Positions 46,259 to 55,500 of a stretch of 64,000 nucleotides of DNA are shown in pieces. This DNA is from Halothiobacillus neapolitanus c2 (lineage in GTDB: Bacteria > Pseudomonadota > Gammaproteobacteria > Halothiobacillales > Halothiobacillaceae). Within the stretch, counting starts at the first letter, position 1; each line of letters opens with the position of its first letter. The stretch spans positions 186,001-250,000 of the forward strand of contig NC_013422.1 in NCBI RefSeq assembly GCF_000024765.1. The letters are read 5' to 3'. The translations under genes were made by a program, and so were the position numbers. The notes beneath the pieces were generated by a model. The model had not been told where the DNA came from. It did no database searches and was given only the letters and a program-made list of their open reading frames with translations.

Positions 46259-47416
46259 TTAATTTTTTAATGCCCAAGGTGCTTGCAAGATCGTCACGGT
46301 ATTCTCTCCCCGACCTTCATGTACGATGACCAGCTTTTTACCATCCGCGCTGAAACTGGCGCCTTCCCATTGCTCAATGGATGGCAGGGAAACCGATGCG
46401 AACGGCTTTTGCAGTGCCGTTGGCCAATCCTCTTTCGCCCTGCGGTAGAAGTAATACACCGCGCTGTAGGTCAGGATGGCCAACAGGTGCCCATCGGGCG
46501 TGAGCGCCATGGCGGTTGGTTGATCGGCGTACGGGCTGGTGAATGGATGCAGCAGCCAACTGACGAGATCCGGGGCGGGCAGCGTGGGTAGATTGGCAAT
46601 GAATCGCGCTGTGACGACCGCTGCTTTTTTCTCCTGCGCACTGATGGGCTTGCCGTCGCTGAGGTTTACGCGTGATGTCAGCGGGATTGCGAACAGCCGC
46701 GCCGATTTTTCGCGTTTGGTGAGAATCAGGAACTCTCTGTGTTCGGCATCAAACACCAGCGATTCGGCATCATGGCCGCCGCTAAAGCCGCCTTGGCGTC
46801 GCGGTGCGGGTACTTGATCGGAATAACGAAAACGGATGATCGCCGTTGGCCTCTGAGTGATATTGGTTTTGAGCGCCACAGGTTCTGGAACAAACCACAG
46901 GCGATAATCAGGCCAAGTGCCGCGATTGTCGCCGATGTCGCCGATCACGAGCGTCGGGTTGCCATCCAGATCAAGGTGGGTGATGGCTTCCCAATCGCGT
47001 TGCCGAACGCCATCGAGTTTGAGTGTGCCGAGCAATTTGCCATCGTTATTGATGGCGAACAGGAGCGGCACACCTTTTTTAGAAGAAGCCGGCAGGTTGA
47101 TGTTGTCGTTATGCGTCCAGTAGACGCCAACATGCTGCGGTGAGCGGGTCAGGCCACTGGCTTCATCGACGATGGCCGGCAATGTTGCCGCAAAGGTGCT
47201 GTGGCCGATAAAAAACAGCAGACAAAACAATGCCGCCAATCGATAAGTGGGAAGCTCGAAAAACCCGTCATTCCCGCGTATGCGGGAATCCAGCTTATTG
47301 ATTTTTCTGGGTTCCAGCTTACGCGGGAACGACGAATAACGGGTATTTCGAGGTGCCCAAGTGTCAATTGGCGGCAGGCTTGCCCGCAAGACGGAGCGGA
47401 AACTCAATCGCTGCAA
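46259..47416 (-). CDS. Exported conserved protein, beta-propeller-like; MITE inside its N-terminus
   Basis: The mature part (from about ATLPAIVDEASGLTRS) looks like a six-bladed esterase-like phytase or SdiA-regulated type propeller (EASGLTRSPQHVGVYWTHNDN, LVIGDIGDN, HDAESLVFD, PTAMALTPDG, WEGASFSADGK). No enzymatic function can be assigned. The frame opens with TTG at 47416. Codons 20-57 come from a 110-bp repeat plus its 4-bp target duplication. Removing these 114 bases restores MQRLSFRSVLRASLPPIDT joined to YRLAALFCLLFFIGHSTFAA, a normal signal peptide. A TTG just before LAALF is an alternative start that would avoid the insert. Confidence 0.72.
   Translation of the reverse strand: MQRLSFRSVLRASLPPIDTWAPRNTRYSSFPRKLEPRKINKLDSRIRGNDGFFELPTYRLAALFCLLFFIGHSTFAATLPAIVDEASGLTRSPQHVGVYWTHNDNINLPASSKKGVPLLFAINNDGKLLGTLKLDGVRQRDWEAITHLDLDGNPTLVIGDIGDNRGTWPDYRLWFVPEPVALKTNITQRPTAIIRFRYSDQVPAPRRQGGFSGGHDAESLVFDAEHREFLILTKREKSARLFAIPLTSRVNLSDGKPISAQEKKAAVVTARFIANLPTLPAPDLVSWLLHPFTSPYADQPTAMALTPDGHLLAILTYSAVYYFYRRAKEDWPTALQKPFASVSLPSIEQWEGASFSADGKKLVIVHEGRGENTVTILQAPWALKN
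47249..47358 (-). repeat. MITE-like repeat, family 2, copy a (inside a coding region)
   Basis: This 110-bp element starts GGGAAGCTCGAAAAACCCG and ends TATTTCGAGGTGCCC, with the internal inverted repeats ATTCCCGCGTATGCGGGAAT and a second set TTCCAGCTTACGCGGGAA. It is flanked on both sides by AAGT (47245-47248, 47359-47362), a perfect 4-bp target duplication. It shares its ends with family 1. Confidence 0.9.
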
Positions 47417-48199: not shown

Positions 48200-48475
48200 T
48201 CGGTGTTTTAAGAAACCCCTGATTGAATCTGGGGTTTCTCGCAGCACAGGGATGTGTTGCCATGAACGATCACACAAGTGAAGCTCGAAAAATCCGTCAT
48301 TCCCGCGTAGGCGGGAATCCAGCGCCTTGATTTTTCTAGGTTCCCGCTTTCGCGGGAACGACGAATCACAGGTATTTCGATGTACCCATAAGTGATTGTT
48401 CATGAAGAAAATCAAAAATCGTATTTTTTATTTTCGCTCTCTTAAAATTCCAGGATGGAATTATTCAGAGTTTTC
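48200..48475 (+). repeat. Palindrome-cluster repeat, family 3, copy C (interrupted)
   Basis: This long non-coding leader upstream of lolC contains a stem-loop around 48211-48238 (GAAACCCC / GGGGTTTC), CATGAACGATCACAC, then after the insert AAGTGATTGTTCATGAAGAA, an A/T palindrome and AAAATTCCAGGATGGAATTATTC. The blocks follow the order of the uninterrupted copy at 13560-13702 (read on its minus strand). The central palindrome is split by a family-2 element at 48280-48389. Confidence 0.75.
48280..48389 (+). repeat. MITE-like repeat, family 2, copy b (nested in family 3)
   Basis: This element begins AAGCTCGAAAAATCCGTC and ends GGTATTTCGATGTACCC, and carries the inverted repeat ATTCCCGCGTAGGCGGGAAT. 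AAGTG occurs just left of it (48276-48280) and again on its right (48390-48394), so the insertion duplicated the target at the centre of the family-3 palindrome. Its outermost G residues are partly lost, so the exact edges are uncertain by 1-2 bases. Confidence 0.85.
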
Positions 48476-55390: not shown

Positions 55391-55500
55391 GGGAAGCTCG
55401 AAAAACCAGTCATTCCCGCTTAGGCGAGAATTCAGCGCCTTGATTTTTCTGGGTTCCTGCTTTCGCGGGAACGACGAATCAAGGGTATTTCGAAGTGCCC
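55391..55500 (+). repeat. MITE-like repeat, family 2, copy c
   Basis: This 110-bp element starts GGGAAGCTCGAAAAACCAG and ends TATTTCGAAGTGCCC, with internal inverted repeats ATTCCCGCTTAGGCGAGAAT and CTGCTTTCGCGGGAA. It is flanked by TTAA on the left and TTTA on the right, a diverged target duplication. It lies between the sucrose operon and the MscS gene and provides their only sizeable intergenic sequence. Confidence 0.88.

Follow-up and report, generated by a model that had tools for sequence, protein, structure and literature searches.

In Halothiobacillus neapolitanus c2, a 110-bp MITE of the IS5 type appears to have inserted into the loop of a terminator or attenuator hairpin that doubles as signal-peptide code, with the stem, the T-rich tail and the reading frame all kept, and with an extension that would be cleaved off; we hold this reading to be fairly probable. 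The non-autonomous element would have been moved, probably, by an IS5-family transposase with the same terminal repeats. It would have landed in the loop of a hairpin acting as a terminator or attenuator downstream of a YgaP-like gene, a hairpin that would also code for the first part of the signal peptide of the following gene. The 114 added bases would leave the frame intact, the stop-free minus-strand frame would yield a basic peptide suited to the cytosolic n-region of a Sec signal peptide, and the insert would be removed with the signal peptide upon export, so that the mature protein would be unchanged. The DNA analysed, called the window below, is a stretch of 64,000 nucleotides (186001-250000 of the single-contig, 2,582,886-bp genome); unless otherwise stated, coordinates are those of the window.

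The element occupies positions 47249-47358. The first-pass annotation had described it as a MITE with a 4-bp duplication, and its boundaries proved exact: direct reading of the flanks finds AAGT on one side (47245-47248) and on the other (47359-47362), and the element belongs to a family of about 86 copies. Taken in the orientation of the family consensus, the copy lies on the plus strand; it is the minus-strand frame that adds WAPRNTRYSSFPRKLEPRKINKLDSRIRGNDGFFELP, of net charge +5, to the host gene. Left ends of the family were found at 86 places in the genome (24-base end pattern, up to 3 mismatches) and at none in the reversed control, while a DNA search recovered at least 40 copies of near-whole length, including this one, the others being 89-95% identical. 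Delimited copies are mostly 110 bp long with 4-bp duplications, 64 out of 78 being exactly 110 bp. The family has the properties of a MITE, namely inverted ends (GGGAAGCTCGAAA / GGGCACCTCGAAA), no transposase and some 86 copies, as well as a target duplication of fixed length (4 bp in most copies) and four empty orthologous sites. An Rfam search gave no meaningful match at 47249-47358. Many insertions are common to this genome and the related genome G001, which places some of the family's activity ahead of that split; the copy studied here implies activity after it as well. Two further copies lie in the window, both on the plus strand: one at 55391-55500, obtained by family search and delimitation, and one at 48278-48387, 1 kb from the copy studied here, which is centred on a 13-bp inverted repeat (CATGAACGATCAC...GTGATTGTTCATG). 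Elsewhere in the genome, four units with common ends form a head-to-tail array that repeats about every 92 bp (L088, 951-1335; genome C1:515450-515834).

The likely source of transposase is an IS5-family element of 1277 bp, present in two identical copies (L122, 1764-3040, and L167). Its transposase scores 307.9 bits against NCBIfam NF033581, for a cut-off of 140, and its terminal repeat GGGCACCTCGAAA matches the MITE ends. The two differ in that the larger element carries a transposase and that the likeness is confined to the outer 17-25 bases; moreover, the 4-bp duplication was looked for at the flanks of both IS5-family copies and was not found.

The host gene is a minus-strand ORF (46259-47416) of 385 codons with the insert, counted from the most upstream TTG. 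As had been proposed, the element plus its duplication (110 + 4 = 114 bases) is in frame and has no stop on the minus strand, the ORF being open through it. Once the element and one AAGT are removed, the gene reads MQRLSFRSVLRASLPPIDTYRLAALFCLLFFIGHSTFAATLP. The hydrophobic core and putative cleavage region LAALFCLLFFIGHSTFA lie at 47189-47239, and the signal-peptide features (basic n-region, hydrophobic core, cleavage motif LAALFCLLFFIGHSTFA|A) were read by eye. The claim that removal joins a short start to the signal core agrees with the arrangement in the two sister genomes, G002 and G001, whose orthologues have 90% and 87% protein identity, respectively. Both are without the 38 codons, as had been anticipated: they read ...LRAKVPPIHTYRSAALFCLLFFIGHS(T/A)FAATLP, compared to ...LRASLPPIDTYRLAALFCLLFFIGHSTFAATLP here with the element removed. 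The protein had no match in Pfam or NCBIfam and no PDB relative by sequence search. Its AlphaFold model has a mean pLDDT of 86.7, and beta-propeller proteins are among the PDB matches listed for the model, with modest TM-scores of 0.4-0.5; the protein is thus a predicted beta-propeller, in keeping with its earlier description as propeller-like. The next gene upstream, on the same strand, encodes a YgaP-like transmembrane protein (PF11127; 47428-47628), and the hairpin follows its 3' end.

If the gene were decaying in this lineage, the insertion could have been tolerated simply because the gene is little used. Both sisters have GTG at the start position where this genome has CTG, and the dN/dS of this lineage, obtained by branch arithmetic, is near 0.26, compared to 0.125 between the sisters. 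However, the whole 313-codon body is intact, and its dN/dS is 0.20 and 0.23 relative to the two sisters. We conclude that the gene is still under purifying selection, and we consider its decay very unlikely as the explanation of the insert.

The earlier description did not see that the target is a conserved terminator-like hairpin, which would offer an RNA-level reason for the site tolerating the insert. On the minus strand, the host hairpin consists of a 5' arm TGCCGCCAATTGA (47364-47376) and a 3' arm TCGATTGGCGGCA (47231-47243), both conserved with compensatory changes in the genus, followed by a T-rich tail TTGTTTTGTC (47221-47230) that is terminator-like and also supplies hydrophobic-core codons. 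The empty site reads TGCCGCCAATTGA-CACTTA-TCGATTGGCGGCA and then TTGTTTTGTC, the duplicated AAGT being inside the loop. The relatives compared were Halothiobacillus genomes (labelled G001, G002, G003, G005, G007 and so on). A hairpin with a T-rich tail is found at the same position in seven others, eight genomes in all, and it lies downstream of the YgaP-like gene in the relatives, to the extent that the upstream sequence was covered. In all eight genomes the downstream reading frame runs through the hairpin, so that the arms and the T tract serve at the same time as codons for the first part of the signal peptide.

Pairing is maintained in 90.4% of the cells of the eight-genome alignment, and 7 of the 13 pairs have changed on both sides. 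The covariation score was 0.508, compared to 0.243 for shuffles and at most 0.146 when partners were slid. A G+C-rich stem-loop with a T tract, 3' of a gene, is present in all eight genomes. The T tract is strong in G007, G005 and G003, and weaker here and in the others. A consensus terminator scan, separate from the alignment, called terminators at the hairpin in G007 and G003; none was called in G001, whose loop is longer than the 8 allowed by the scan and whose T tract is interrupted by a G. From these sequence features, the hairpin between the YgaP-like and propeller genes probably serves as an intrinsic terminator or attenuator and doubles as signal-peptide codons.

Alternatively, the hairpin could serve translation-level control or be a by-product of codon choice, rather than act as a terminator, and the insertion in its loop would then be a coincidence. 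The target preference of the family bears on this possibility. The target consensus is symmetric (A.T.AC-NNNN-GT.A.T around the duplicated four bases, which the site at 47249-47358 fits in part), and such symmetry would by itself favour palindromes; in addition, the average target has less structure than the sequence around it (mean -8.1 compared to -9.8 kcal/mol). Against this alternative, six insertions are centred on long inverted repeats where 0.93 would be expected (P = 0.0002, motif-keeping permutation), although some of these long-inverted-repeat targets resemble one another. The seven double-changed pairs also encode different amino acids, and tracts of 7-8 T follow the stem in G007 and G003. 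Overall, we find this alternative doubtful. Hairpin targeting as a family-wide rule was rejected, since targets are less structured than nearby sequence and only a tail of the copies is centred on long inverted repeats.

The insertion is at the symmetric centre of the hairpin, so that both arms can still pair and the T-rich tail still follows. The filled minus strand is predicted to fold as one long hairpin, the host stem being closed around the element stem, at -91.2 kcal/mol, compared to -51.4 kcal/mol for shuffles (z = -9.2). With the host stem still closing around the element, an insertion at the loop centre can leave the stem, the T tract and the frame intact.

Whether the 38 codons are read depends on the start codon. 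A start adjoins the hairpin in G001 (GTG after GAGGGCAAAA), in G007 (ATG) and in G002 (GTG with a weaker upstream motif), and the sister gene start is likely the GTG at the hairpin base. In this genome CTG stands in place of that GTG, and upstream of it only TTG codons could serve as in-frame starts, none with a well-spaced Shine-Dalgarno sequence. A start at the internal TTG (47237-47239; MAALFCLLFFIGHSTFA...) would leave the element untranslated, confined to the 5' leader and the hairpin. This would resemble the situation of most other open-frame copies near genes, which stop short of a clear start (as before the dapF-like and proA-like genes), and it would fit with the upstream starts in this gene being non-ATG. 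The internal TTG, however, has no usable Shine-Dalgarno sequence, the nearest GAG being about 15 bases upstream, and a signal peptide initiated there would lack any basic residue ahead of its core. Furthermore, the frame is open through the hairpin in the seven relatives, with starts adjoining or preceding it in all but one draft genome. An untranslated element is therefore improbable in our judgement, and an upstream TTG or CTG start with read-through of the element appears more likely. The earlier proposal that the insert was tolerated as coding sequence stands as regards its position, in frame before the signal-peptide core of a gene with a dN/dS of 0.20-0.23, whereas translation of the 38 codons is something we infer, since every plausible start here is a weak TTG or CTG.

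An open-frame survey across emptied sites, based on a simple codon score, was carried out on the 78 delimited copies of this genome and 19 copies of G001; by this score a few intragenic copies may have been overlooked. Most copies were intergenic or upstream of clear starts. Several other open-frame crossings (dapF-like, proA-like) were not counted as in-frame genes, on account of their clear downstream starts. Beyond the propeller gene, three in-frame intragenic copies were found, each with an empty orthologue. In a TesA-like GDSL lipase (Pfam; L102, 972-1790; element at genome C1:12923-13032), which begins with AGGAGG-6-ATG and MKFLWLL, the insert follows codon 7 and precedes a hydrophobic core with a lipobox-like LIAC; it is common to this genome and G001, and not present in G002. 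In a YceI protein (Pfam) of G001 (L127, 960-1748), starting MYTASLIPTWSRV, the insert follows codon 13, within the signal peptide, and the sequence resumes as KSTTRSMATLALIAAMFGAASNVFA; the site is empty in this genome and in G002, and the ATG is conserved. Both genes have a Shine-Dalgarno motif and a conserved ATG upstream of the insert. The third is a PGM-like protein, named by eye, with the insert (L021, about 1501-1610) following MNKLHLSILGLHPEPRFEEDKSHK at about codon 24 in this genome and G001; the site is empty in G002, the N-terminal pattern is recognisable in G007, and the protein has no evident signal peptide and is apparently not exported.

Three of the four in-frame inserts (propeller, TesA/GDSL and YceI) thus precede a signal-peptide core, with a peptide charge of +4 to +5, and cleavage should in these cases remove the added residues. 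The PGM-like case led us to reject the idea that only signal peptides tolerate the element; cleavage of the signal peptide is not the sole route to tolerance.

The open frame itself is a poor guide, and was rejected as a sign of selection because most copies have it. In the consensus, three of the six frames are open, and a full-length copy with its 4-bp duplication always keeps the frame. The same frame is open in 60 of the 78 copies, and when the consensus is given seven random substitutions the frame stays open in 82% of cases. With three of six frames open, finding it open in four out of four non-mobile genes is only about a 1-in-16 event. The position of the inserts is the stronger signal: all four lie within approximately the first 24 codons.

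According to a recent review, it is not unusual for MITEs within genes to be fused to them in frame, the palindromic elements of Rickettsia (RPEs) being the extreme case, and nearly half of the RPEs of R. conorii are inside genes (PMC10969869). A likeness to these elements had been suggested from the propeller gene, and the three additional in-frame copies strengthen it. RPEs are short palindromic repeats of about 100-150 bp, in many copies, inserted in frame in unrelated genes and read as peptide (PMC10969869), and the present MITE is likewise found in frame in unrelated protein genes, four in number. It differs in its host, in being mostly intergenic with its four in-frame copies so close to the start, and in having a 4-bp duplication, IS5-like ends and an apparent source transposase in the genome. 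The comparison is one of behaviour, not of sequence, and suggests an IS5-type MITE behaving like an RPE rather than a member of that group. In Coxiella, QMITE1 and QMITE2 overlap ORFs or are fused with them in frame, and QMITE1 encodes basic peptides, which makes them similar, although their size and direct-repeat length are different; the parts of that report consulted describe no case, among these or other bacterial MITEs in ORFs, of an element lying inside a conserved terminator-like hairpin or a signal-peptide n-region (PMC5896051). Literature searches for MITEs in Halothiobacillus and for RPEs with signal peptides found nothing, and a search for MITEs in signal-peptide n-regions returned only a plant genome paper. 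Intragenic in-frame MITEs are therefore already known; what is unusual here is that the element lies within a conserved terminator-like hairpin which also codes for a signal peptide.

These loci suggest that selfish DNA is probably turning into protein code outside Rickettsia, and four genes can be seen in sister genomes both with and without the insert. From them, rules can be proposed for the survival of such insertions, which would favour N-terminal leaders and RNA hairpin loops, and the coincidence of a conserved terminator-like hairpin with signal-peptide code is directly testable. A broader scheme may be put forward tentatively, and we think it rather unlikely in full: a genus-wide terminator would also be the signal-peptide code of the next gene, and a palindrome-preferring MITE would repeatedly create translated N-terminal extensions in such loops or leader codons, changing expression or export while leaving the mature protein untouched.

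Other copies of the family were seen in different relations to genes. At three places (L081, around 1097; L129, around 1103; L094, minus strand), the right end CGAGGTGCCC adjoins an ATG and places a Shine-Dalgarno-like GAGG motif 5-7 bases upstream of it; two of these three junctions are orthologous between two species. Two copies, judged by eye, seem to interrupt integrase-like genes (L025, about 1000-1110; L023, about 1503).
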